A stretch of DNA of 43,870 bases from the NCBI GenBank assembly GCA_027729785.1, contig JAQCDY010000003.1, positions 1-43,870 of the forward strand, given 5' to 3'. This document shows positions 26,621 through 38,596 of the stretch, in pieces. Origin of the DNA: Actinomycetota bacterium (GTDB taxonomy: Bacteria > Actinomycetota > Acidimicrobiia > Acidimicrobiales > Ilumatobacteraceae). Position numbers and translations under genes: made by a program. The stretch's first letter is position 1, and every line of letters starts with the position of its first letter. The notes beneath the pieces were generated by a model, which was not told the DNA's origin, did no database searches, and saw only the letters and a program-made list of their open reading frames with translations.

Positions 26621-27037
26621 CTAGCCGACCAATACGAGGCTGACCACGCCTAGCGAGGCGGCATTGGCGACCATTGCTACTTCGGTCATCGGCACGGCCA
26701 AGACGACTGTTGTCTGCCGATTTGGCAGATCAATCACATCAAAAACCAGAACTCGCTCAAGAGATATCGCCGAATCGATGATCACATCGACATAGTCACC
26801 TGAGTGAATTTCTGGCAGTGGCCCGGCACTTTGCATCGCCACTGCACGAAACCCAAAAGGTATTTTGTGGCGACTCGCACCCTGCAGGTCGCTTGTTGCG
26901 ACATCGTTGTCGTGAAACGACACCGCAGAAACCATAAAGAGAAGGGCACAGATAACGGATAATGAAACGACAACAATTCGCTGTCGTGTGGCGTCACGGC
27001 AAAGTTCATACCAAGACTCGAGAAGTTTTGTTTTCAT
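26621..27037 (-). CDS. Membrane-anchored CpaB/SAF-like protein
   Basis: A 138-residue protein with a cytoplasmic N-terminus, one helix (about 21-39, IVVVSLSVICALLFMVSAV) and an extracytoplasmic domain. The stretch RHKIPFGFRAVAMQSAGPLP...IHSGDYVDVIID resembles the RcpC/CpaB segment of Flp-pilus assembly proteins (G-RAVA then PGD-VDV), but no pilus genes are nearby. The track ORF extends 95 residues upstream through the low-complexity tail of fmdB in another frame; that part is rejected, and ATG 27037 gives a plausible start. The two genes are 22 bases apart and probably co-transcribed. Confidence 0.65.
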   Translation of the reverse strand: MKTKLLESWYELCRDATRQRIVVVSLSVICALLFMVSAVSFHDNDVATSDLQGASRHKIPFGFRAVAMQSAGPLPEIHSGDYVDVIIDSAISLERVLVFDVIDLPNRQTTVVLAVPMTEVAMVANAASLGVVSLVLVG

Positions 27038-27059
27038 GGCTGAATGCCATGTGTGCCGC

Positions 27060-27461
27060 TTAAGAATTAGTGGCTGGGGCTGGTTTCGTCTCAGTTTTTG
27101 TCGGTGATGCTGCATCGCTCGAACTAGTCGAACTAGTCGTGCTGGTCGTGCCTGAAGTAGTACTTGAGTCTGAACCCGCGCCTGTCGTTGAACTCGTGCC
27201 TGCAGTTGAACCCGCGCCTGCAGTTTCACTCGGCTTGCCTGTTGATGAGCCTGAAGTGGCGGTCTTGCCTGAGGCTGCACTATCGGTCTTGTAGAAACCT
27301 CCACCCTTGAAAGTGACGCCAACCGGTGTGAACACTTTTTTCACTGGGCGCGGCTTGCCGTCTGCTGGGTGCGGCGCCTCGGTCAGCGCATCATCGCTAA
27401 ATGCCTGATAGATCTCAATGGTCTCTCCCGAGTCAATGAACTTGTAGACATAAGTCGGCAT
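27060..27461 (-). CDS. FmdB-like protein lacking the zinc-ribbon cysteines
   Basis: The first 60 residues align with FmdB-family zinc ribbons: MPTYVYKF at the start, then YQAFSDDALTEAPHP and KKVFTPVGVTFKGGGFYKTDS. The two CxxC pairs expected at the positions of FIDSGE and APHPAD are absent; the whole protein contains no cysteine, so it cannot bind zinc in the usual way. Residues 65-133 are a Ser/Thr/Gly/Ala low-complexity tail ending TKPAPATNS. FmdB proteins are small and poorly understood, often annotated as regulators. In actinobacteria the gene commonly neighbours galU and folate genes, as here (divergent from galU, 26 bases between starts). Confidence 0.8.
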   Translation of the reverse strand: MPTYVYKFIDSGETIEIYQAFSDDALTEAPHPADGKPRPVKKVFTPVGVTFKGGGFYKTDSAASGKTATSGSSTGKPSETAGAGSTAGTSSTTGAGSDSSTTSGTTSTTSSTSSSDAASPTKTETKPAPATNS

Positions 27462-27487: not shown

Positions 27488-28297
27488 GTGGCTGTGCGCA
27501 CTGCTGTTATTCCCGCGGCCGGAATGGGCACACGCTTCTTGCCCGCGACCCGCGCCACGCCCAAAGAATTGCTACCTATATATGACACCCCGGCGCTGCA
27601 GTTCGTGATCGATGAGGCGGCGCAGGCGGGTTGCACGCGTGTTGTGATCGTCACCAGTCGAGCCAAGCCGTCGATCGAGAGCTATGCCTCGGCTGCCAGC
27701 ACCGACAAAGTCGCGGTCAGTGTCGTGTACCAAGACTCGCCGTTAGGTTTAGGCCACGCGGTGAGTTGCGCGCGACAAGTGGTGGGCGACGAGCCGTTTG
27801 TGGTGATGTTGCCCGACGAAATAATGGGCGACGCATCGCTGACGAAACAACTTGTGGCGCTCCATGAAAAATCTGGCAAAAGCAGCATTGGATTAAAACG
27901 AGTTGCGGCTACTGAAGTCTCGAGCTATGGCAACGTCAAAGTCGCCGTTTACAAAAGCGACACAGAAGATGCAGTTGAAATTTTGCAAGTTGTTGAAAAA
28001 CCAAAACCAGCAGATGCCGTCAGCGACATCGTGATTATTGGTCGTTATGTGTTTTCACCAAATATTTTTGACAAACTCGAACAGATAAAGCCGAGCGCTA
28101 ACGGCGAACTGCAGTTGACCGATGCGCTGGAAATGTTGGCAAACGAGCGCGCCTTGTTGGGCGTTGTCAGCGAAATAACTCGATACGACACTGGCACGCC
28201 GATGGGGCTTTTGCGCGCAGTCATTGAGATTGCTCTTGAGCGCAAAGATGTTGGTCAGCAATTGAACTCTTGGCTTAAAGAAAAATTCAACAAATAG
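27488..28297 (+). CDS. galU: UTP-glucose-1-phosphate uridylyltransferase
   Basis: Makes UDP-glucose from UTP and glucose 1-phosphate for wall polysaccharides and glycolipids. Seen: the nucleotide-binding start AVIPAAGMGTRFLPATRATPKELLPI near 6-31 with the signature Arg and Lys, then QDSPLGLGHAVSCAR near 82-96, PDEIMGD, EKPKP and the late GRYVFSPNIFDKLE. The 269 residues are a little short, lacking some C-terminal extension of E. coli GalU. It starts with GTG 6 bases behind TAGGAT. In mycobacteria and corynebacteria galU sits beside the moeA-like glp gene; here that order holds with two extra genes in between. Confidence 0.94.
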   Translation: MAVRTAVIPAAGMGTRFLPATRATPKELLPIYDTPALQFVIDEAAQAGCTRVVIVTSRAKPSIESYASAASTDKVAVSVVYQDSPLGLGHAVSCARQVVGDEPFVVMLPDEIMGDASLTKQLVALHEKSGKSSIGLKRVAATEVSSYGNVKVAVYKSDTEDAVEILQVVEKPKPADAVSDIVIIGRYVFSPNIFDKLEQIKPSANGELQLTDALEMLANERALLGVVSEITRYDTGTPMGLLRAVIEIALERKDVGQQLNSWLKEKFNK

Positions 28298-28313
28298 ATT
28301 AAAGTCGGCAGTT

Positions 28314-29552
28314 ATGGCTAAAAATTTTGGGGCAACAATTGATGCCAAAGAAGTCGGTCTTGACTCGACGCGACTAAAAAATATCGATAAGCATTTCAAT
28401 CGCTATGTCGACGAAGGTCGATTGGCTGGCTACGCGGTTGCCGTTGCGCGACACGGCAAAGTTGCACACTTTGGCATGTATGGCCACAAAGATTCTGAAT
28501 CTGGCACGCCGATTACCGACGACACGATATACCGCATTTTTTCGATGACCAAGCCGATTACCTCGATCGCATTGATGATGTTGGTCGAGCGTGGCTTGCT
28601 GCAACTCACCGACCCAGTCAGCAAGTTCATACCATCATTTGGCGAAACCCGAGTTTGGAATACGGGCACGGTATTAAAGCCACTGACAAATGCGTTGACC
28701 GAGCCGATTCGCATTTGGCATCTGTTGACCCACACCGCAGGCATGACATACGGCTGGATGTATTCAGATCTTGTAGACGACATGTATCGTCGCGCCGGCT
28801 TCGAAGCAGGCGTGGCCTATAAAGATTCGCTCGAAGTCGTCTGCGATAAATACGCGGCGTTGCCACTTTTATTTCAGCCAGGTTCAAGTTGGAACTACAG
28901 CGTCGCCACCGACATTGTTGGCCGAGTAGTTGAAGTTGTTGGCAAGATGCCACTTGACGAGTTCTTTGAAAAAAATATTTTTCAACCACTTGAGATGCAT
29001 GACACTGCATTCTGGGTGTCGAATGATAAGCACGACCGAGTCGCATCACTTTACCGTTACGACGAGGTAACACACAGAAAGACAAAACTCGATAGTTTTG
29101 GAAACAACGCACTTGAAAAGCCAGCGTTTCTGTCGGGCGGCGGCGGCCTGGTTTCAACTGCCAGTGATTACTTTAAGTTCATCCGCATGCTCGAAGGTCG
29201 TGGTAAATCAGGCGATGTGCAACTGCTTTCGTCGCGCACTTTCGAAATGATGGTGATGAACCATCTGCCGAACAACGCCGACATCTCAACATTCGGTCGA
29301 CCACTCGGCGAAGAAATTTTTTATGACGGTTTGGGTTTTGGTTTCGGGTTCTCTGTAGTTGTTGATCAGGCCAAAACTCGTGTGGCTTGCCCAAACGGCA
29401 CATTCAGTTGGGGTGGCATGGCCAGCACCGCGTTTTGGGTAGACCCAGTCAACGAGATCAGCGCGATGTTCTTCACGCAGTTGATTCCGTCGAGCACATA
29501 TCCGATACGCCCGTATTTGCGCTCGCTGGTTTACGCCGCCGTCACCGACTAG
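28314..29552 (+). CDS. Beta-lactamase-fold serine hydrolase (esterase-like)
   Basis: Member of the class C beta-lactamase/penicillin-binding superfamily used by EstB-type esterases. Seen: catalytic Ser77 and Lys80 in FSMTKPITS, Tyr195 in WNYSVATDIVGRV, and a C-terminal FSWGGMAST where true beta-lactamases have KTG. This pattern favours an esterase or peptidase over antibiotic resistance. No signal peptide is seen, so it is probably cytoplasmic. The 412 residues fit the family. It begins 16 bases after galU, behind TAGATT or TAAAGT boxes that could give it its own promoter. It converges on the glycolipid-binding-like gene. Confidence 0.85.
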   Translation: MAKNFGATIDAKEVGLDSTRLKNIDKHFNRYVDEGRLAGYAVAVARHGKVAHFGMYGHKDSESGTPITDDTIYRIFSMTKPITSIALMMLVERGLLQLTDPVSKFIPSFGETRVWNTGTVLKPLTNALTEPIRIWHLLTHTAGMTYGWMYSDLVDDMYRRAGFEAGVAYKDSLEVVCDKYAALPLLFQPGSSWNYSVATDIVGRVVEVVGKMPLDEFFEKNIFQPLEMHDTAFWVSNDKHDRVASLYRYDEVTHRKTKLDSFGNNALEKPAFLSGGGGLVSTASDYFKFIRMLEGRGKSGDVQLLSSRTFEMMVMNHLPNNADISTFGRPLGEEIFYDGLGFGFGFSVVVDQAKTRVACPNGTFSWGGMASTAFWVDPVNEISAMFFTQLIPSSTYPIRPYLRSLVYAAVTD

Positions 29553-29570
29553 TTCGAGCTCGCGCAAAAA

Positions 29571-30149
29571 CTATGCGATGCGCTTGAATTGACTCGGTTC
29601 GTCAAGAATGAATCCGAACTCATCGACTGTTGCTTCAACTTCACAGTTTGAATAACTGCTTGTAAATCTCCAGATGTTTTGAGAAACTTTCGTGTATTGG
29701 TGTGTCTGTTTGGTGATGCCGAGTGTCTCAACATCGATGACTGCAACGCTGATAGTTGCGCTGTGTCCAACGAGCAGAGGTAGTCGCCGCATCGGAATGC
29801 AATTAGTGAACGGCGTATTGACGAAATCGATATCGGTGCAGCCATCTAACTCGGTGCGATGCGCGCCGTTGACTTCACCCCAGCGACCGTGGGTGTCGGT
29901 GCCGAGCCAAAGGTCAGGTTCTTCAAGATCGCGAAACAACAGGCACTGTTGAATTGTCCAGCCAGCCGAAATACGCAACACAAATTGGGCACTGGCGGCA
30001 CCGAGCGTGCCTTCGGCTGTCCAACCTTCATTCTCCCAGCGCAACTTCACTTGGCTCGTCGCACTATTGAGCGCTGGGGTAACGTTCTGCCAAACCAGCG
30101 TGTGGCCCGATGCTGAAAGCGATTGAAAGCCGTTCATAACTATGAGCAT
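29571..30149 (-). CDS. Putative glycolipid-binding domain protein (PF06475-like)
   Basis: A soluble protein resembling the putative glycolipid-binding family known from mycobacteria and other bacteria. Seen: GWTAEGTLG, then RWGEVNGAHRTELDGCTDID, TPFTNCIPMRRLPL near 118-131, the QTHQYTKV segment and a final VDEFGFILDEPSQF, which follow the family's order along the full length. The ligand and the role are unproven. The start is uncertain between ATG 30149 and ATG 30137 (192 or 188 residues), with no clear ribosome-binding site. It is divergent from moeA (32 bases) and convergent with the serine hydrolase; its position between galU and moeA is unusual. Confidence 0.75.
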   Translation of the reverse strand: MLIVMNGFQSLSASGHTLVWQNVTPALNSATSQVKLRWENEGWTAEGTLGAASAQFVLRISAGWTIQQCLLFRDLEEPDLWLGTDTHGRWGEVNGAHRTELDGCTDIDFVNTPFTNCIPMRRLPLLVGHSATISVAVIDVETLGITKQTHQYTKVSQNIWRFTSSYSNCEVEATVDEFGFILDEPSQFKRIA

Positions 30150-30168
30150 GCCACCATATCTGGGGCGA

Positions 30169-30174
30169 TACCGT
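30169..30174 (+). promoter_or_regulatory. -10 box TACCGT of moeA
   Basis: TACCGT lies 7 bases before the GTG start of moeA, close to the spacing seen at other leaderless genes. Weak by itself; supported by the repeated geometry. Confidence 0.3.
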
Positions 30175-30181
30175 CAGCGCT

Positions 30182-31399
30182 GTGATTTCTTTGGTCGAAG
30201 CGCAGCAGATCGTGATCGGTGGATGCGAACCAGCCGCACCGGTGCTGGTCGACTGTGAGTCGATGTCGGGGCGAGTAGTGGCGCAAGAAATTGTGTCGAC
30301 AGAATTTATTCCTCCGTTTGCCAACACTGCAGTCGACGGCTTTGCCGTGCGTGCGCAAGACGTGACGACTGCTGGCGTCGAACTTGAAGTGCTTGGCGTT
30401 ATCGGCGCTGGTCATGTTGCCGACTATGAAATTGGCGCGGGTCAGGCTGCACGAATTATGACCGGCGCGCCGATGCCGCAGGGCGCCGATGCCGTGGTGA
30501 TGATCGAAGATGTGACCGAACTAAGCAAGTCACGTGTGCGATGCAACAAGCCGGCCAAAGTTGGCGATGCAATTCGCAATATTGGCGAAGATGTGCGAGC
30601 AGGCGAGGTGGTGTTCAAATCGGGTTCGCTGATTAACGCCGCAGGCATTGGAGTATTGGCAGGCATTAACGCGCGAAGAGTTTTGTCGTATCCACGTTTG
30701 CGCGTGGCGATGCTTTCGACTGGCGATGAGCTCGTGATTGACGGATCAGACCTGAAGCCGGGGCAGATTCGCGAGAGCAACTTGACGATGCTGGCAGCCA
30801 TGATCAGCGCGACAGGCTGTGAAGTGATAAATCTTGGCATTGTCGCCGACGACGAGGCAGTTCTTGAAAGCAAACTGCGCGAGGTCGCGACACGGTGTGA
30901 TGCGGTCGTCACGAGTGGCGGCGTTGGTCAGGGAGACTTTGATGTTGTAAAAATTGTTTTGTCACGCATCGCCGACATGAAGTGGATGCAGATGGCAATC
31001 AAGCCCGCGAAACCTTTTGCTTTTGGCAAACTAACAACAAGCGACTTGCGAGTGATCCCTATTTTTGGTTTGCCGGGCAACCCCGTGTCGTCGATGATCA
31101 GTTTTGAATTGTTGGCGCGACCCGCTTTGCGCAAAATGATGGGGCACACGCAAAATTTGATGCGACCGACTGTGCGCGCGGTTGTCGATGCGCCGTTGAA
31201 GCGCAAGCAAGACGGCAAAATTCATTTCATGCGAGTGTTCGGCGAGTTCGCCGAGGATGGGCGACTGCATATTCGCGACACGGGGCCGCAGGGTAGCCAT
31301 CAACTTGCAGCCACGGCGCAGGCCAACGGTCTGGCGATGGTGCCCGACGGTCAAGGGTTGGCACTTGGCGCCGAAGTAGAAGTGATGATGCTTGCGTAA
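30182..31399 (+). CDS. moeA: MoeA/gephyrin-like molybdopterin molybdenumtransferase
   Basis: Inserts molybdate into adenylated molybdopterin, the last step of molybdenum cofactor synthesis. Active-site elements are intact: NTAVDGFAVR with Asp52, NIGEDVRAGE with Asp137, STGDEL with Asp182, SGGVGQGDFDVVK, IKPAKPFAFG and GLPGNPVSS. The 405 residues include all four MoeA domains. The start is GTG 30182. Followed by moaA and moaC, it is clearly a cofactor gene. In corynebacteria a homologue (Glp) has been recruited to cell division through a membrane receptor, GlpR; a receptor-like gene lies 1.7 kb downstream here, so a double role is possible. Sequence alone cannot separate the two functions. Confidence 0.92.
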   Translation: MISLVEAQQIVIGGCEPAAPVLVDCESMSGRVVAQEIVSTEFIPPFANTAVDGFAVRAQDVTTAGVELEVLGVIGAGHVADYEIGAGQAARIMTGAPMPQGADAVVMIEDVTELSKSRVRCNKPAKVGDAIRNIGEDVRAGEVVFKSGSLINAAGIGVLAGINARRVLSYPRLRVAMLSTGDELVIDGSDLKPGQIRESNLTMLAAMISATGCEVINLGIVADDEAVLESKLREVATRCDAVVTSGGVGQGDFDVVKIVLSRIADMKWMQMAIKPAKPFAFGKLTTSDLRVIPIFGLPGNPVSSMISFELLARPALRKMMGHTQNLMRPTVRAVVDAPLKRKQDGKIHFMRVFGEFAEDGRLHIRDTGPQGSHQLAATAQANGLAMVPDGQGLALGAEVEVMMLA

Positions 31400-31425
31400 T
31401 ATGCTCAATCTATGGAAATGCGATC

Positions 31426-32445
31426 ATGGAATTAGTTGACCCGTTCGGGCGAACTGTCCGCGACTTGCGAATTTCGATCACCGATCGCTGCAATTTTCGT
31501 TGTACCTATTGCATGCCAGAAGAAGGATTGGCGTGGCTCGACCGTAAAGACATTTTAAGTTTCGAAGAAATCGAACGATTGGCGACGATTTGTGTGCATC
31601 GATTCGATGTCGACAGCATTCGTTTGACGGGTGGCGAGCCGACGGTGCGGGCTCACTTGCCGATGCTGGTCGAAAAACTCGCGCAACTGAAAGTGCCGAG
31701 CACCGCCAAGTCGCCCATGGCGGGCAGAAATATCGATCTGGCACTGACGACAAACGGCGCAACATTGCGTTTGCTCGCCGATGATCTCAAATCTGCGGGA
31801 TTGTCGCGGATCAACATCAGCCTCGACACGCTGCAAAGCGAAAGGTTTCTCAAGATCACCCGTCGCGATCACTTAGCAAATGTCCTGGACGGAATTGATT
31901 CGGCGATTCAAGCCGGTTTTGCACCAGTCAAAATCAACGCTGTTATTCAGCGCGGTGTAAACGACGATGAAATTTTGGCACTTGCCAGTTTTGGGCGCGA
32001 CAAAAAAGTTGAGGTGCGATTCATTGAGTTCATGCCACTCGACGCACAAGGTCAGTGGCAACGCAACGATGTAGTCGGTCAAGATGAGATCGTGGCGACG
32101 ATCAACAATGTCTATCCACTTGAGCAAGTTGCAGCGCGTGGCGCAGCACCCGCAGATCGCTGGCGGTATCTTGACGGCGCAGGCACAATTGGCGTGATTC
32201 CGTCGGTGACAAAGCCGTTTTGCGGTGACTGCGATCGTGTGCGACTGACTGCGGAAGGGCAATTTCGCACTTGTTTGTTCTCGACGACCGAGTTTGACCT
32301 GCGGGTGATGCTGCGGGGCGGTGCGACCGACGACGCGATCGCATCTGAAATTGCCCGAGCAGTCGGCACCAAGTGGGCGGGACACGCGATCGGCAACGTC
32401 ACATTCGTGCGACCTAAGCGCTCGATGAGTCAGATCGGCGGCTAG
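31426..32445 (+). CDS. moaA: GTP 3',8-cyclase MoaA
   Basis: Radical-SAM enzyme that begins molybdenum cofactor synthesis by rearranging GTP. Seen: the SAM-cluster motif CNFRCTYC with Cys22, Cys26 and Cys29, SIRLTGGEPTVR near 63-74, the C-terminal cluster FCGDCDRVRLTAEGQFRTCLF (three cysteines) and the terminal double glycine of MSQIGG that is essential for catalysis. The 339 residues match the family. It starts 26 bases after moeA, and moaC follows after 18 bases, so moeA-moaA-moaC form one transcription unit. MoaC is its direct partner in making cyclic pyranopterin. Confidence 0.96.
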   Translation: MELVDPFGRTVRDLRISITDRCNFRCTYCMPEEGLAWLDRKDILSFEEIERLATICVHRFDVDSIRLTGGEPTVRAHLPMLVEKLAQLKVPSTAKSPMAGRNIDLALTTNGATLRLLADDLKSAGLSRINISLDTLQSERFLKITRRDHLANVLDGIDSAIQAGFAPVKINAVIQRGVNDDEILALASFGRDKKVEVRFIEFMPLDAQGQWQRNDVVGQDEIVATINNVYPLEQVAARGAAPADRWRYLDGAGTIGVIPSVTKPFCGDCDRVRLTAEGQFRTCLFSTTEFDLRVMLRGGATDDAIASEIARAVGTKWAGHAIGNVTFVRPKRSMSQIGG

Positions 32446-32463
32446 TCATGTCGTTGAAAAATC

Positions 32464-32943
32464 ATGTCTGACCTGAATTTTTCGCATCTCGACCCGATGG
32501 GTCGAGCCCGCATGGTTGATGTAACGCCAAAAGAACCGACGCATCGTCGCGCGGTGGCTAGGTGCAAAGTTTTTATGAAACCCGAAACAACGGCGGCGAT
32601 TGTTAATCGTGAAGTGAAAAAGGGTGATGTGCTCGCCGTTGCTCGCGTCGCGGGCATTCAGGCGTCAAAGCGCACGGCCGAGATGATTCCGCTATGTCAT
32701 CCGCTGTTGGTTGGTGCGGTACATATCAACTTTGAATTCGGCGACGACCACATTGCGGTTGAGGCGCAAGTCGACACGGTCGACCGCACAGGCGTCGAAA
32801 TGGAAGCGCTGCATGCTTGCTCGGTCGCCGCGCTGACGATCTACGACATGTGCAAGAGCGCCGACCGCGCGATGGTCATTGGCGAACTCACTTTGTGGGA
32901 GAAGTCGGGTGGGCGACAGGGCACCTATCGGCGCGAGGCGTGA
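32464..32943 (+). CDS. moaC: Cyclic pyranopterin monophosphate synthase MoaC
   Basis: Converts the MoaA product to cyclic pyranopterin monophosphate. Seen: ARMVDVTPKEPTHRRAVARC near the start, VARVAGIQASKRTAEMIPLCHPL near 61-81, VDRTGVEMEALHACSVAALTIYDMCKS (active-site region) and the ending EKSGGRQGTY. The 159 residues are normal. It is the last gene of moeA-moaA-moaC. MoaD and MoaE (molybdopterin synthase) are not in the window and must lie elsewhere. Confidence 0.96.
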   Translation: MSDLNFSHLDPMGRARMVDVTPKEPTHRRAVARCKVFMKPETTAAIVNREVKKGDVLAVARVAGIQASKRTAEMIPLCHPLLVGAVHINFEFGDDHIAVEAQVDTVDRTGVEMEALHACSVAALTIYDMCKSADRAMVIGELTLWEKSGGRQGTYRREA

Positions 32944-33037
32944 GGTTCGGGTGCTAGTACATCCATTAATTTTTCTTGGCGGTTCCCATAGTTTTAGGGC
33001 TTTGAGAGGCTTGGGTAGTGATTTGGTCAACCCGTAA

Positions 33038-33043
33038 TACACT
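33038..33043 (+). promoter_or_regulatory. -10 box TACACT of the GlpR/SepX-like gene
   Basis: TACACT lies 11 bases before the ATG, with AGAAG between as a possible weak ribosome-binding site. It suggests that the membrane-protein gene has its own promoter in the 111-base gap after moaC, which otherwise holds nothing recognisable. Confidence 0.35.
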
Positions 33044-33054
33044 TAGAAGACCCC

Positions 33055-33579
33055 ATGAGCAAGTTAATACTTCTGATCGTTGGTGCCGCTTGGCTGGCAG
33101 TTCTTTTGCCACCCCTAGTCCGAGCCCGAATAAACAAATCACCGACAATTTCGGTGAGCCATTTTCGTCGTCACCTCTCGACTTTGCAGAACTCTAATCT
33201 GCGCCATCCGCAGGGGCAATTGCGAGGCATGTCTCGCGAACTGGCGCCAAACCAGAGCCGTTCACGTCAGGTGAGTCATTTATCGCATCTAACCGGCCCG
33301 ATTTTGCGACCACAAGGCACCCGCTCGCATCAGCCGCGCTCGGGCGATTTTTACGCTCGCGAACTTGTTCGTCAGCGCCGTCAACATACGGTTGTAGGTC
33401 TGGCTACGGCAGCGGTGGTTTCGTTGTTCTTGGCGTTCACGACTGGCTCGATTGTTTTGGTTTATGCGTTTACGCTGAGCCTGATCGCATTGCTCGGCTA
33501 TTGCTATTGGCTGGTGCAACTTCGCTTGCAGCGCGATAGCACGCGCTATATGCGTCAGTTTCGTAACCGCGCCGCCTAA
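33055..33579 (+). CDS. Small three-helix membrane protein, GlpR/SepX-like
   Basis: A 174-residue protein with one N-terminal helix (about 3-22) running into LLPPLVRARINKSP, then TISVSHFRRHLSTLQ, a basic, Ser/Gln-rich cytoplasmic linker (45-110), and a C-terminal pair of helices (112-129 and 132-154) followed by a basic tail. This 1+2 helix plan and the PPLVRxRxxxSPTISVSxFRRxLSTL block match what I remember of actinobacterial SepX/GlpR, membrane partners of the gephyrin-like Glp in cell division. The position behind moeA-moaA-moaC and near galU and rimJ supports this. The assignment is from memory and context; sequence similarity must be tested. No function is shown. Confidence 0.6.
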   Translation: MSKLILLIVGAAWLAVLLPPLVRARINKSPTISVSHFRRHLSTLQNSNLRHPQGQLRGMSRELAPNQSRSRQVSHLSHLTGPILRPQGTRSHQPRSGDFYARELVRQRRQHTVVGLATAAVVSLFLAFTTGSIVLVYAFTLSLIALLGYCYWLVQLRLQRDSTRYMRQFRNRAA

Positions 33580-33613
33580 CTAGCCAAACTCGCCAAACAA
33601 TTCAACGCAATTC

Positions 33614-33686
33614 GGGGCTGTAGCTCAGTTGGTAGAGCGGTACGTTCGCAATGTACAGGCCAGGGGTTCAATTCCCCTCAGCTCCA
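33614..33686 (+). tRNA. tRNA-Ala (anticodon CGC)
   Basis: 73 nt cloverleaf: acceptor GGGGCTG/CAGCTCC including the G3-U70 pair that identifies alanine tRNA, D arm GCTCAGTTGGTAGAGC, anticodon stem GTACG/TGTAC around TTCGCAA, T arm AGGGGTTCAATTCCCCT, discriminator A. CCA is not encoded. Confidence 0.95.
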
Positions 33687-33779
33687 CAATTCACGGTTAG
33701 GCGGAGAACACGGCCGAGTGGCACAATATCGGAGTACCAAAATGGTCGACTATTCAAAAAGCAGGGTGGGGCTTCGCAA

Positions 33780-35498
33780 ATGACAATGACTTGGACCGAG
33801 GCGAATCTTGCTGTTACTGCACCTGGACAAATTTTTGAACTGATAGATGCTGAGGTGTTTGGCGTCAAGATGCAGGTGTTCAAGAATGCACCAGCGCATC
33901 TGGGTCAGGTTTTTGCGGGTGCGCGTGGCCATGGTGACAAGACGTTTCTCGTGTATGAGGGCGAGACATACACATTCACCCAAGCCATGGATCAAATTGA
34001 TGCACTGTCAAATCTGCTCGTAAACAGTTATGGCGTCAAGAAGGGCGACCGAGTTGCGGTCGCGATGCGCAATTATCCCGAATGGGTGATGTCGTTTGCA
34101 GCGATCATCTCGGTTGGCGCCATCTCCGTGTCGATGAATTCGTGGTGGGTCGAAGACGAAGTAGATTTCGCGTTGCAAGACTCTGGTGCAACGGTCTTGA
34201 TTTGCGATCAACAACGTTTTGACGTCGCCGCGCAATGTTGCAAGAAACTCGGCGTCAAAGTTTTGGTTGTGCGAGCCGAAAAGCCGCTGCCAAGTGGTGT
34301 CGACAAGTGGCAAGATGCTTTGGCGCCGCACTTGAAAGCGGCGTTGAAATGTCCGGTTGTTGACATCAAGTCTGACGATGACGCGACAATTTTGTACACC
34401 TCGGGTACGACTGGTCGACCCAAGGGTGCAGTGTCGACACATCGCGCGATTATTTCTTCGTTGATGGCCTTCTCGTCGCGCAACGCAATTCTCACAATGT
34501 CGGGCACGAAACTCAAGGAAGTAACTGGCCCGGAAGTACCGACTTCGTTTATTTTGATCGTGCCCCTGTTTCATGTCACTGGTTGCGTGCCAGTGATGAT
34601 GAGTTGCTTCATCGCCGGCTTGAAACTGGCGATTATGTACAAGTGGGATGCCGAAAAGGCTCTCGAAATGATCGAGCGTGAGCAGATTACGAATTTTGTT
34701 GGCGTGCCGACGCAAAGTTGGGATCTCGTCAATTCGTCGGTATTCGACAAATACGACACGACGAGTTTGCGCGCAGTGGGCGGCGGCGGCGCACCATCGC
34801 CAACTTCGCTTGTTGGCAAAGTCAACGACAAGGTCAAAAATGGCAACCCGCAACTGGGTTACGGCATGACCGAAACAAACGCGTTCGGCCCCGCCATCAC
34901 TGGTTCTGATTATTTGGCGCATCCGACCAGCACAGGTCGCGCAGTGGTGCCGATGCGTGTCGAAGTGCGTGACGAAAATCTAAAACCCTTGCCAACCGGC
35001 GAAGCGGGCGAGATTTGGTTCTTTGGTCCGATGTTGATTCGTGGATATTGGAAACGCCCCGAAGCCAATGCCGAGACGATTGTCGACGGCTGGCTGCGCT
35101 CGGGTGACATCGGCCGGATTGACGCCGAGGGTTTTGTATACGTCGAAGACCGCGTCAAAGACATGATTCTTCGGGCAGGTGAAAACATTTACGGCGCCGA
35201 GGTTGAGAGCGCGATCTACGATCACCCAGCTGTGCACGAGGCCGCGGTTTTTGGCGTGCCTCACGAGCGCCTAGGTGAAGAAGTTGGCGTGGCGATTTTG
35301 CCCAAAGCCGGCGTGGTTCTTGATCCACAAGATTTGTGGAAGTTTCTTGAAGGCAAAATCGCAGCATTCAAAGTGCCGGTGCATGTCGTTGTGATGCAAG
35401 AGCCGTTGCCGCGCAACGCCGCCGGCAAGTTTTTGAAGCGCGAACTTCAACAGCGCTTGACCAAGGGCGAACTTACAGCGATTTCTCGCACGAGTTAG
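33780..35498 (+). CDS. Acyl-CoA ligase (AMP-forming, FadD-like)
   Basis: ANL-superfamily adenylating enzyme that activates a carboxylic acid with ATP and CoA. Seen: ATP loop ILYTSGTTGRPKGAVSTHRA, YGMTETNA, the hinge region GWLRSGDIGRIDAEGF, VEDRVKDMILRAGENIYGAEVE and the C-terminal catalytic Lys in NAAGKFLKREL. I start at ATG 33780 (572 residues); the track ORF begins inside tRNA-Ala. GGGTGGGG upstream could be a ribosome-binding site. A fatty-acid or aromatic/alicyclic acid substrate is likely; a PfkB kinase and an enoyl-CoA hydratase nearby give only a weak hint at acyl-CoA catabolism. Confidence 0.9.
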   Translation: MTMTWTEANLAVTAPGQIFELIDAEVFGVKMQVFKNAPAHLGQVFAGARGHGDKTFLVYEGETYTFTQAMDQIDALSNLLVNSYGVKKGDRVAVAMRNYPEWVMSFAAIISVGAISVSMNSWWVEDEVDFALQDSGATVLICDQQRFDVAAQCCKKLGVKVLVVRAEKPLPSGVDKWQDALAPHLKAALKCPVVDIKSDDDATILYTSGTTGRPKGAVSTHRAIISSLMAFSSRNAILTMSGTKLKEVTGPEVPTSFILIVPLFHVTGCVPVMMSCFIAGLKLAIMYKWDAEKALEMIEREQITNFVGVPTQSWDLVNSSVFDKYDTTSLRAVGGGGAPSPTSLVGKVNDKVKNGNPQLGYGMTETNAFGPAITGSDYLAHPTSTGRAVVPMRVEVRDENLKPLPTGEAGEIWFFGPMLIRGYWKRPEANAETIVDGWLRSGDIGRIDAEGFVYVEDRVKDMILRAGENIYGAEVESAIYDHPAVHEAAVFGVPHERLGEEVGVAILPKAGVVLDPQDLWKFLEGKIAAFKVPVHVVVMQEPLPRNAAGKFLKRELQQRLTKGELTAISRTS

Positions 35499-35505
35499 TT
35501 TTCGC

Positions 35506-36528
35506 GTGCCCCCAGTAAATCTCACGACAGTCGATGGTGTGAGTCTTGATGCGTTGACGATTGGCAATGCGTTGGTCGATGTTTTGGCGACGGTTGACGA
35601 AAGTTTTTTGGTGCGCGAAAAAATCGTCAAAGGTTCGATGAACCTTGTCGACATTCAGCGCTCGAAACATTTGCATTCGCTGGTGCACTCGCGCACCGAG
35701 ATGAGTGGCGGCTCGGCGGCCAATACGGCCTATGGGTTGGCCAGCCTGGGTGGTAAGGCTGGGTTCATCGGCAAGATTTCTGCAGACCGTCTCGGTGATG
35801 CTTTCAAGCATGACCTTGACACTGTGGGCGTGAGGTTCTTTCCGGGCGCGACTTGCACGAGTGAAGACACTGGTCGGTGTTTGATCGTCGTCACGCCGGA
35901 CGGCAATCGCACGATGAACACATTCTTGGGTGCAGCCTCGTTGCTCGACGCCGCAGATATTTCTAAATCTGCCGTACAGAGTGCTGCGGTCGTGTTTCTT
36001 GAGGGCTATCTGTTCGACAGAGAAGCGGCTAAAGATGCTTTTCGAACCGCGGCCGAGTTTGCACATGCGGCAGGGCGCAGGGTTGCGCTCACGCTTTCAG
36101 ATTCTTTTTGCGTAGACCGTCATCGCGCAGACTTTTTGTCGTTGGTTAAAAATGACATCGACATTTTGTTTTCGAACGAAGACGAACTCAAGGCGCTATA
36201 CCAAGTCGAGTCAATCAACGATGGGCTACATCAGTTGCGCGAGGATTGCGAATTTGCCGCCGTCACGCGCAACGAGCATGGGTCAGTCGTGATCGACGGT
36301 GAAGAGGTCGTGATTATCGACGCTGAGCCAGTTGACAGCGTGGTTGACGCCACCGGGGCAGGCGACATGTATGCAGCCGGTTTTCTTTACGGCTTCGTGC
36401 GCGGCAAATCAATCGAGCAATGTGGCAAGATCGCCTCACTAGTCGCCTCAGAAGTCATCTCGCACATGGGGCCGCGACCGCTCGTGTCGTTAGCAACCGT
36501 CGTACCGAAAGATTTGTTGCTTTCTTAA
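35506..36528 (+). CDS. PfkB-family sugar or nucleoside kinase
   Basis: Ribokinase-fold ATP-dependent kinase. Seen: IGNALVDVLATVDE near 19-32, MSGGSAANTAYGLASLGGKAGFIG near 66-89 (substrate and anion site), FSNEDELKAL and the catalytic signature VDATGAGDMYAAGFLYG with the base Asp in GAGD. The 340 residues and the opening resemble adenosine-kinase-like actinobacterial members, but the substrate (adenosine, ribose or other) is not determined. The start is GTG 35506, 7 bases after the acyl-CoA ligase, so the two genes are coupled. Its 3 prime end overlaps the convergent hypothetical gene by 4 bases. Confidence 0.88.
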   Translation: MPPVNLTTVDGVSLDALTIGNALVDVLATVDESFLVREKIVKGSMNLVDIQRSKHLHSLVHSRTEMSGGSAANTAYGLASLGGKAGFIGKISADRLGDAFKHDLDTVGVRFFPGATCTSEDTGRCLIVVTPDGNRTMNTFLGAASLLDAADISKSAVQSAAVVFLEGYLFDREAAKDAFRTAAEFAHAAGRRVALTLSDSFCVDRHRADFLSLVKNDIDILFSNEDELKALYQVESINDGLHQLREDCEFAAVTRNEHGSVVIDGEEVVIIDAEPVDSVVDATGAGDMYAAGFLYGFVRGKSIEQCGKIASLVASEVISHMGPRPLVSLATVVPKDLLLS

Positions 36529-37142
36529 ACTTCGTCGGCTGGAAAGAAAGTTAGTTTGAGGTCGCCAAGGCGCACGAGTGTTGTCGCAATCCAACCGCCG
36601 AGGCTGCCAAAATTTTCATCCAGCAATTTGCTCGTGCCGTCTTGCAGGGTTTCTTCGGCGAGTTCATAGCTGCCTTCGTATGTCACTTCGATTGCATAGT
36701 CGAGTCGATCAGCAGATTTCTTGTCCGTCTGTGTTGGATGATTTATTTCAACCGTGATGCCCTCGCGATCCAATTTGCCCTTGCCAATCTGTGGGCTTTT
36801 AATCGGTGCGATACTTTCAATAAGGTTTGCGTCGGGCTGCGTCGTGAGACGCTGCATGCGAAACACTATTTGCATTTCAATCTCTGGCGCTTCATGAAAA
36901 ATTTCTTCGGTATACCATGCACGATAAATTGCCTGGCTCCAACTCGGCCAAGTCAGCGTGACATGGGCAATGACTCGTGGCGGTCGACCTTCGCCAGGCA
37001 GGCCGTAGCTCGTCTCCCAGACAAGATCGCCAAGCAAGACATCTGACTGAAAATGTTCGTCAAACGCTTGGCGTTCAAGAAACGCATTTGAAAAGGCGTC
37101 GCGCAAGGCGCTAATCGCATCAGTAAAGACATGGTCCAACAT
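36525..37142 (-). CDS. Hypothetical protein, 205 residues
   Basis: I do not recognise the family. It is a soluble acidic protein with LVWETSYGLPGEGRPPRVIAH near 42-62, aromatic-rich TWPSWSQAIYRAWYTEEIFHE, and a beta-rich second half ending DLKLTFFPADEV. Codon use matches neighbours, and its ATG starts 32 bases from the divergent enoyl-CoA hydratase gene, which supports a genuine gene. It overlaps the stop of the PfkB kinase by 4 bases. No catalytic motif, signal peptide or membrane helix is visible. Confidence 0.65.
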   Translation of the reverse strand: MLDHVFTDAISALRDAFSNAFLERQAFDEHFQSDVLLGDLVWETSYGLPGEGRPPRVIAHVTLTWPSWSQAIYRAWYTEEIFHEAPEIEMQIVFRMQRLTTQPDANLIESIAPIKSPQIGKGKLDREGITVEINHPTQTDKKSADRLDYAIEVTYEGSYELAEETLQDGTSKLLDENFGSLGGWIATTLVRLGDLKLTFFPADEV

Positions 37143-37174
37143 GCAGTACTCACGCTAACAATGTGCCAAACTAA

Positions 37175-37930
37175 ATGCTCATGAGTCTTGTGCAGGTTGA
37201 GCGAAAAGATGGTGTGGCGACACTGACGCTAAATAACCCAGCAGAGCGCAACACGATGACTGCCGAGATGGTCGCTGATATTTCGGCCGCGATGAACGAT
37301 ATCGAAGCTGATCAAAGAGTCGGTGCGCTTGTCGTCACCGGTGCGGCACCCGCTTTTTGCGCAGGTGCGAACCTCGGCAATTTGGCCGAGGCCGACGGTG
37401 CATCACTGACGAAGATCTATGAAGGCTTTTTGCGTATCGCACGCACACCATTGCCGACGATCGCCGCGGTAAATGGTGCCGCAGTTGGCGCCGGCATGAA
37501 CTTGGCGTTGTGTTGTGATGTGCGCATCGCCGCTGCTCGCGCAAAGTTTGACACGCGATTTTTGCAGATCGGTTTGCACCCGGGTGGCGGCCACACTTGG
37601 ATGTTTCGCAATATTGTGGGCCCGCAAGCCACGATGGCTGCAGTTATTTTCGGCGAGATTCTCGACGGTGTCGAAGCCGAGCGCGTTGGCTTGGTTTATA
37701 AATGTGTGCCGGATGACGAGTTGATGTCGGTTGCACACGCCATGGCGATGCGCGCCGCCAGCGCGCCACGCGAACTAGCGATTCTCACAAAGCGCACGAT
37801 TCAAGAAATGGCAAATGTTGCAACCCACGAACAAGCAGTCGCCAAAGAACTCGAGCCACAAGTGTGGACAACGCGCCAACCTTGGTTCGCCGAGCGCCTC
37901 GCCACCCTGCAATCTCGCCTCAAAAAATAA
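37175..37930 (+). CDS. Enoyl-CoA hydratase/isomerase family protein
   Basis: Crotonase-fold enzyme acting on acyl-CoA thioesters. Seen: the oxyanion hole CAGANLG near 66-72 and AAVNGAAVGAGMNLALCCDVRIA near 97-119, then FDTRFLQIGLHPGGGHTWMF, where one of the usual catalytic Glu positions is replaced (LHPGGG), so a standard hydratase reaction is not certain. At 251 residues the length fits. Start ATG 37175 or ATG 37181 (two residues shorter); neither has a clear ribosome-binding site. It could work with the acyl-CoA ligase 2 kb upstream. It converges on rimJ with a 3-base gap. Confidence 0.88.
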   Translation: MLMSLVQVERKDGVATLTLNNPAERNTMTAEMVADISAAMNDIEADQRVGALVVTGAAPAFCAGANLGNLAEADGASLTKIYEGFLRIARTPLPTIAAVNGAAVGAGMNLALCCDVRIAAARAKFDTRFLQIGLHPGGGHTWMFRNIVGPQATMAAVIFGEILDGVEAERVGLVYKCVPDDELMSVAHAMAMRAASAPRELAILTKRTIQEMANVATHEQAVAKELEPQVWTTRQPWFAERLATLQSRLKK

Positions 37931-37933
37931 AAA

Positions 37934-38596
37934 TTACTTGCGGATTACGAGCCACTGGTGGGTGAGGGCATCATGGCGCTCGTGCCACTCTTCAGAAGTG
38001 ATCGCATAACGCAAGTGATCTTCCCAGACGCCATTGATTTCGAGAAAGCGCTCGGCTAAACCTTCGAGGCGCAGCCCCAACTTCTCGGCGATTCTCTTGC
38101 TATTTGTATTGCGCGGGATTATGCACACTTCAAGGCGATGCAGGTTCAATTCATCAAAGGCGAATTTCATGATTGCCACTACACCTTCGGCGACGTAACC
38201 GTTGCCCGCATGTTTGCGGTCAATCCAATAACCGATCGTGCCCGTCTGCATCGCCCCGCGCACGACATTGTTGATGTTGACCTCGCCAACCAGCAAGTTG
38301 TTCAAAAATAAACCAAGCGCGTATGCCGAACCATTTTGTCGCTCGCGGTCACGCGCCACACAACGGCGCTCAAATGCGTCACGGTCAGTAGCCGGATCGG
38401 CCAAAAACTCTGAACGGCGGGGCTCCCAAACATTCAGCCACTCGACATTGCGCAGTCGCACCTCGCTCCAGGCTTCAAAGTCGTGGGTGACCAGCGGTCG
38501 CATCATGATTCTTTGACCATAAAGACGCGGCGGCGCGACCGGCGTACCAGCAGGATGCAAAAACCTTTTCGGTGAAGTGTTCGACAAGTGACTCAA
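37934..38596 (-). CDS. RimJ/RimL-type N-acetyltransferase
   Basis: GNAT-fold acetyltransferase. Residues 30-215 form the domain: GQRIMMRPLVTHDFEAWSEVR, then LVGEVNINNVVRGAMQTGTIGYWI, the acetyl-CoA loop RKHAGNGYVAEGV, and LHRLEVCIIPRNTNSKRIAEKLG with the RimJ-type NxxS region. Relatives acetylate ribosomal protein N-termini, but the substrate here is not known. Its ATG overlaps the ppx stop by 4 bases. In mycobacteria a rimJ-like gene sits between the moeA-like glp and the glpR-like gene; here it is 4.4 kb from the GlpR-like gene, on the opposite strand. Confidence 0.87.
   Translation of the reverse strand: MSHLSNTSPKRFLHPAGTPVAPPRLYGQRIMMRPLVTHDFEAWSEVRLRNVEWLNVWEPRRSEFLADPATDRDAFERRCVARDRERQNGSAYALGLFLNNLLVGEVNINNVVRGAMQTGTIGYWIDRKHAGNGYVAEGVVAIMKFAFDELNLHRLEVCIIPRNTNSKRIAEKLGLRLEGLAERFLEINGVWEDHLRYAITSEEWHERHDALTHQWLVIRK

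Follow-up and report, generated by a model that had tools for sequence, protein, structure and literature searches.

The galU-moeA-moaA-moaC-glpR cluster examined here is best explained, with moderate confidence, as a descendant of an ancestral actinobacterial locus, galU-moeA-(moaA)-moaC-glpR, in which the membrane protein GlpR acts without MoeA, the MoeA paralogue Glp having been recruited as its partner later, in Actinomycetes. The cluster lies in a stretch of 43,870 nucleotides (contig JAQCDY010000003.1, hereafter the window) from the metagenome-assembled genome (MAG) of a freshwater actinobacterium of the class Acidimicrobiia. This genome is 86% complete, and all organism-wide copy counts rest on that assembly. 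In a scan of genome contigs with the MoeA alignment, the nearest relative to carry a name was the MAG Acidimicrobium sp. Baikal-G1, with a MoeA identity of 88%. An earlier reading of the same DNA (the original prediction) had listed galU, moeA, moaA, moaC, a gene for a 174-residue membrane protein and a RimJ-like gene, all of which lie where it had placed them (Table 1), and had proposed that one MoeA may serve both cofactor synthesis and cell division, as a state preceding the dedication of Glp to division.

According to the explanation favoured here, MoeA would be the only molybdenum insertase of the organism, and would act with MoaA, MoaC and MoaE to make the cofactor for the molybdoenzymes of the genome. 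The 174-residue protein would be a short SepX/GlpR membrane protein, in which an N-terminal helix leads into a basic, disordered stretch on the cytoplasmic side, and a helical hairpin into a short tail that is again basic. It would most likely serve as a small septum or envelope scaffold independently of MoeA, with which it presumably makes no contact in the window organism. The partnership of the Corynebacterium type, in which Glp, a MoeA paralogue with a decayed catalytic site, links FtsZ to GlpR, would have arisen later, after a duplication of moeA in Actinomycetes.

GlpR in genomes without MoeA

The relation between the two proteins was followed in a class-wide census of 246 Acidimicrobiia genomes (each at least 90% complete), 207 of which hold MoeA while 39 do not. 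A GlpR match is kept in 26 of the 39 genomes lacking MoeA, 21 of them at E<1e-6, and MoaA is also absent from the MoeA-less genomes among those listed. The keepers span several families (f22, f28, f34, f95 and f19 among them), and the GlpR proteins of twelve such genomes, read in sequence, show the same architecture. If GlpR needed MoeA, its loss would be expected to follow that of MoeA, so this persistence argues against a dependence on MoeA. It argues as well against a function in the cofactor pathway, while the division role still rests on family membership.

The 174-residue membrane protein as a SepX/GlpR relative

The open reading frame (ORF) of the membrane protein has no informative Pfam match. 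Against the NCBIfam collection, it matches SepX_GlpR_2 (E=1.9e-7), SepX_GlpR_4 (E=2.9e-6) and SepX_GlpR_1 (E=8.8e-4), with scores that fall short of the curated cut-offs (31.3 against 150 bits, and 27.5 against 110 bits). A homologue is present in 46 of 61 relatives searched. In an alignment of 23 Acidimicrobiia homologues, all 23 match SepX_GlpR_2 (best E-value 1.9e-14) and 22 match SepX_GlpR_1, again below the curated cut-off of the model. The relation anticipated for a hidden Markov model search against the SepX/GlpR families was therefore detected both in the window protein and in all of these relatives. Profile significance and synteny together identify the protein as a divergent member of the SepX/GlpR family; since its scores lie below the curated cut-offs, it is filed as a homologue on a divergent branch outside the current models, and not as a curated member.

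The architecture of one N-terminal and two C-terminal helices that had been proposed for this protein agrees with its hydropathy peaks (residues 10-17 and 119-147) and with the AlphaFold2 helices (2-26, 96-130 and 133-173), in a model of low confidence (predicted local distance difference test, pLDDT, 62) in which residues 50-96 fall below 50. Both disordered stretches are basic (isoelectric point, pI, about 12) rather than forming a pair of opposite charge. The conserved core of the 23 homologues runs from the end of the first transmembrane helix (TM1) as TM1-PP-R...S..F R..L..L, and comprises the PPLVRARINKSP / SVSHFRRHLSTL block already pointed out in the original prediction, in which P19, P20, R23, P30, S33, F37, R38, L41 and L44 show either no variation or a conservation of 90% or more. 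By analogy with SepX and GlpR, a scaffold role at the septum or envelope is most likely, and family membership likewise suggests that the protein would act in the divisome.

A joint loss of MoeA and of the PP motif at the TM1 end was considered and rejected, as this motif is also missing from the MoeA-bearing families f19 and f27. Many GlpR/SepX proteins share a short C-terminal motif, LRRSAN, RRAAN or RRVAN in Acidimicrobiia and RRAVGD in Nonomuraea (among the loci L036, L041, L042, L044, L143, L161, L171 and L216-L224), which is a possible conserved binding peptide. The family of the window GlpR ends differently, in FRNRAA.

Copy number, active site and structure of MoeA

The MoeA_N domain has a single match in the whole genome of the window organism, and exactly one MoeA is found in 189 of the 207 MoeA-bearing Acidimicrobiia genomes. 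The expected absence of a second, separate Glp was thereby borne out within an assembly of 86% completeness. MoaE, together with XDH-family and DMSOR-type/molydop-binding molybdoenzyme domains, is encoded in the same genome, so that MoeA would be needed for the cofactor.

The window MoeA retains 11 of the 12 active-site residues of Escherichia coli MoeA (D59, T100, R137, D142, E188, D228, D259, K279, P298, P301 and S371). The catalytic integrity that had been claimed for it is consequently upheld at these positions, the exception being K275, and a molybdenum insertase activity is probable from these residues. Its scores lie below every curated cut-off (PRK10680, 360/440 bits; MoeA_actino, 326/560; Glp model, 354/475). 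An AlphaFold2 monomer (pLDDT 94) gave template modelling scores of 0.95 to Cnx1E, 0.79-0.91 to the E. coli MoeA chains and 0.70-0.73 to Glp (8BVE/8BVF); the predicted conformation is that of a molybdenum insertase, not that of Glp.

Among the locus copies of Acidimicrobiia with extra MoeA, no active-site decay of the Glp kind was seen. In other orders, tandem MoeA pairs lie away from the galU-glpR locus (L265-L270, in genomes G406, G495, G464, G437 and G382), and have G, T or A at the position of R137; such pairs, in genomes with extra copies, are possibly of the archaeal two-copy type.

MoeA compared with Glp

Deletion of the FtsZ-binding loop of Glp abolishes its binding to both FtsZ and GlpR (PMC10522489). 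At the positions of the FtsZ-contact residues of Glp (V338, L343, L360, M361, R362, Y369, L370 and F414), the window MoeA reads V, D, G, E, F, L, H and M, so that only V338, one of the eight, is matched. The proline-rich hinges of Glp are not found either: CEPAAPV stands for VAPRPV and YPRLR for HPRPR, the second hinge being missing.

Decay of the active site was compared in the same way. Corynebacterium glutamicum Glp carries D228G, D259A and K279H, and Glp of the Corynebacterium and Mycobacterium types has lost D228, D259 and K279, whereas locus copies of the Streptomyces type keep D228 and D259. The loss of K279 was considered as a marker of Glp and rejected, Q at this position being common to other Actinomycetes MoeA. 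In the Streptomyces, Nonomuraea and similar loci that keep both aspartates (L052, L058, L063, L068, L076, L143, L161, L169, L170 and L181; a few have E), the MoeA also lacks the Corynebacterium FtsZ loop, and full decay of Glp may be confined to Mycobacteriales.

In the MoeA tree, the Acidimicrobiia form a clade outside the one that contains Actinomycetes Glp, other Actinomycetes MoeA and the locus MoeA of Nitriliruptoria; the locus MoeA is thus not part of the Actinomycetes clade that gave rise to Glp. This placement makes it appear that the duplication leading to Glp took place within Actinomycetes, after their split from the window lineage, a conclusion also reached previously (PMC10522489). 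When MoeA of Acidimicrobiia and Actinomycetes was constrained to a single clade, an approximately unbiased (AU) test gave p=0.0004, with a grouping that broke the Acidimicrobiia clade, since it left out L128 and compelled two copies from outside that clade, L149 and L171, to join. With L128 in and L149 and L171 out, a second test gave a constrained tree of higher likelihood and a p of 0.72, for a grouping picked after the tree had been seen; it is no more than compatible with a vertical descent of MoeA. The sequence L128 (JAGXBH010000009.1) comes from a MAG titled Acidobacteria, and its position inside the Acidimicrobiia clade reflects mis-binning or transfer.

From its sequence, the window MoeA looks like a pre-duplication relative of Glp, and nothing in the analysis suggests an existing job in division. 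Of the proposed state preceding the division role of Glp, therefore, the part that stands is the pre-duplication MoeA outside the Glp clade, while the part in which MoeA already takes part in division does not.

Gene order at the locus and a possible second role of MoeA

Among relatives drawn from about 25 families of the order to which the organism belongs, and likewise in named Acidimicrobiia genomes (L102-L125), the genes usually run FmdB< galU> moeA> moaA> moaC> glpR>. Other orders of the class have a version lacking moaA, as do Nitriliruptoria (L137 and L156); Nonomuraea and one Streptosporangiales genome show galU-moeA-moaC-rimJ-glpR; and a Mycobacterium-like genome shows galU-moeA(glp)-rimJ-glpR, being the sole Mycobacterium-like locus that reaches glpR. 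The recurrence of this order in most of about 25 other families and in other classes is far beyond chance, which agrees with the anticipated conservation beside moeA. As the order is shared by Nonomuraea, Streptosporangiales, a Mycobacterium-like genome, Nitriliruptoria and Acidimicrobiia, the surroundings published for glp and glpr belong to the same locus, and the Acidimicrobiia locus is orthologous to the Glp/SepX locus of Actinomycetes. Examination of the window and its relatives has accordingly revealed a relation to SepX/GlpR, a conserved order and no second Glp, the three points on which the original prediction could have failed.

Distances to glpR were compiled by hand for 80 genomes with known positions of both moeA and glpR, in which some separations may correspond to contig breaks. 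The moeA gene lies within 10 kb of glpR in 66 of the 80. For moaC, the distance stays within 3.1 kb in all but one of 62 genomes (61), and of the 12 cases in which moeA has moved away from glpR, 11 still have moaC adjoining it.

This linkage bears on the proposal that the single MoeA moonlights, that is, that a molybdenum insertase doubles as a septal binding partner of GlpR (and FtsZ) and is a true moonlighting ancestor of Glp. A single-copy MoeA, its linkage to glpR even where moaA has moved, and the typical tail peptide of the organism's own FtsZ (DDDLPSFLK) all speak for it. However, the Glp loop for binding FtsZ and GlpR is not conserved, the missing second hinge and the predicted insertase conformation point the same way, GlpR outlives MoeA, and in broken loci it is moaC, and not moeA, that stays with glpR. 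A dual role for this MoeA is for these reasons considered unlikely.

Several points nevertheless weigh against the favoured explanation. First of all, the strong linkage of moeA and glpR, which persists in orders where moaA has moved off, hints at some coupling. Second, the stretch between TM1 and TM2 of the 174-residue protein is basic, whereas the first intrinsically disordered region (IDR1) of C. glutamicum GlpR is acidic, and the GlpR of MoeA-less lineages is divergent, so that its function could have changed. As for MoeA, K275 is replaced by Q, as in most Acidimicrobiia; the window genus and its relatives L049, L051 and L102 carry GGVGQGD near the active site in place of the nearly universal GGVSxGD; a further copy could sit in the missing 14% of the genome; and the AlphaFold2 conformation is weak evidence that says little on dynamics.

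MoaC without the cofactor pathway

At least 20 of the genomes of the census (93-98% complete) keep MoaC without MoeA and MoaA; MoaE is found in none of the 20, and GlpR in 18 (G057, G256, G263, G271, G279, G341, G346, G425, G458, G474, G487, G492, G504, G517, G527, G532, G540, G247, G393 and G411 are the orphan-MoaC genomes). These genomes show at most one weak molydop-binding match, in a frame of roughly 630-1050 residues, which is probably NuoG. Seven orphan MoaC proteins read in sequence (L086, L088, L089 and L275-L278) keep K51, K131, E112, E114 and D128, one of them with H77R. The ratio of nonsynonymous to synonymous substitutions (dN/dS) is about 0.08 (0.15 against 1.85) in the sole pair with usable dS, the dS of the other pairs being saturated or high. 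MoaC is also present in some genomes from beyond the Acidimicrobiia that gave no convincing MoeA match, in a comparison that covered MoeA and MoaC only. The survival of MoaC without MoaA, MoaE and MoeA constitutes a separate puzzle, and points to an unrecognised role of MoaC.

One answer would be that MoaC is the real partner of GlpR, with a second, cofactor-independent role at the membrane, and that moeA is linked merely through the shared operon. The close spacing of moaC and glpR, the orphan genomes that keep both, and the conserved catalytic residues and low dN/dS of the orphan proteins favour this possibility. Adjacency by itself is weak evidence, as genes standing side by side should in any case be the last to separate. 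In families f19 and f34, the orphan moaC still lies between galU and glpR, but in the loci read of families f22 and f95 it lies by FmdB/PmbA, away from glpR; moreover, GlpR occurs without MoaC in seven MoeA-less genomes, and a contact between MoaC and GlpR is not known. A partnership of this kind is as doubtful as a moonlighting MoeA. Slightly more speculative still is the broader idea that MoaC and GlpR form a cofactor-independent unit in Acidimicrobiia, one ancestral operon having supplied the same divisome membrane protein with two enzymes of the cofactor pathway, MoaC as well as MoeA (the later Glp); if true, it would explain both how a MoaC with an intact active site outlives its pathway and why, of the conserved genes of the locus, moaC lies nearest to glpR.

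Finally, that the membrane protein is a factor of the cofactor pathway and no division protein, for example a membrane anchor of MoeA or a molybdate-related protein, is very improbable: glpR closes the moeA-moaA-moaC operon, but the protein is kept in genomes without MoeA, MoaA and MoaE and matches SepX/GlpR profiles.

Other features of the window

RimJ, which had been counted among the kept partners of the locus, was rejected as a member of the module. Within the Acidimicrobiia loci read, a rimJ-like gene is found only in a same-genus relative and in the closest named MAG (L049 and L102), and in the window it lies on the opposite strand, so its correspondence with mycobacterial rimJ is probably due to chance. 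The gap between galU and moeA holds a beta-lactamase-like gene and a minus-strand ORF. On the left border, the FmdB-like ORF overlaps an ORF of the same strand (26621-27322) within 26621-27461 (-); the latter shows a long low-complexity extension, and its true start is probably further downstream.

Table 1. Genes of the galU-glpR locus and its surroundings in the window.
Feature	Position	Strand	Evidence and remarks
FmdB-type zinc-ribbon gene; left border of the conserved locus, divergent orientation	27060..27461	-	TIGR02605 E=2e-3, below cut-off; same spot in most homologous loci
galU, UTP-glucose-1-phosphate uridylyltransferase; opens the conserved cluster	27488..28297	+	TIGR01099 E=7e-74, below curated cut-off
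Beta-lactamase/esterase-like gene; insertion outside the ancestral cluster	28314..29552	+	PF00144 E=8e-69; only in L049, L051 and L102 (genus and close relatives)
Uncharacterised ORF between galU and moeA; family-conserved	29571..30149	-	Same-place homologues in L032-L035, L048 and L103-L108
moeA, sole molybdopterin molybdotransferase	30182..31399	+	PF03453/PF00994/PF03454
moaA, GTP 3',8-cyclase	31426..32445	+	TIGR02666 E=9e-111, above cut-off
moaC, cyclic pyranopterin monophosphate synthase; nearest of the genes conserved beside glpR	32464..32943	+	TIGR00581 above cut-off; active site intact
glpR/sepX homologue, 174 residues: TM1 and TM2-TM3 on either side of a basic disordered stretch, with a short basic tail	33055..33579	+	NCBIfam SepX_GlpR matches below cut-offs
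tRNA-Ala(CGC); just downstream of glpR, outside the module	33614..33687	+	ARAGORN
RimJ-like GNAT N-acetyltransferase; probably unrelated to the locus	37934..38596	-	PRK10809 E=7e-25, below cut-off

Comparison with known systems

The window MoeA shares nearly all of its active site with E. coli MoeA and the plant Cnx1E, to which its model is closest, and differs from them in K275Q, in having Gly for the Ser of the GGVS motif (a feature of the genus) and in belonging to an operon that closes with glpR. With C. glutamicum Glp (8BVE/8BVF) it shares the MoeA fold and the locus. Unlike Glp, it keeps D228, D259 and K279, lacks the FtsZ loop and the second hinge, is single-copy and falls outside the Actinomycetes clade. 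The locus of the Streptomyces type, with the order galU-glp-moaC-rimJ, is homologous, whereas that of Acidimicrobiia has no rimJ and contains moaA.

The 174-residue protein resembles SepX from Streptomyces venezuelae (PMC8748795) in its three membrane segments, largely disordered loops and lack of a catalytic domain. It is also similar to C. glutamicum GlpR (Cgl0885, PMC10522489), which is likewise encoded after galU and a MoeA homologue and has three predicted helices and disordered cytoplasmic stretches. However, the latter protein is about 340 residues long, and its stretch between TM1 and TM2 has a pI of 4.05; the window protein, by contrast, is encoded beside a catalytically intact MoeA and scores below the curated SepX/GlpR cut-offs. 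In the published systems, glp and glpr are found together wherever they occur, members of the glp clade come mostly from Actinomycetes, and the bearers of Glp have at least two copies of moeA (PMC10522489, PMC11733289). The Acidimicrobiia hold a GlpR-family protein beside a single, catalytically intact MoeA, and hold it also in lineages without MoeA. This persistence is what is new here and counts against a co-dependence of MoeA and GlpR, which suggests that the receptor GlpR came first and that Glp was recruited later.

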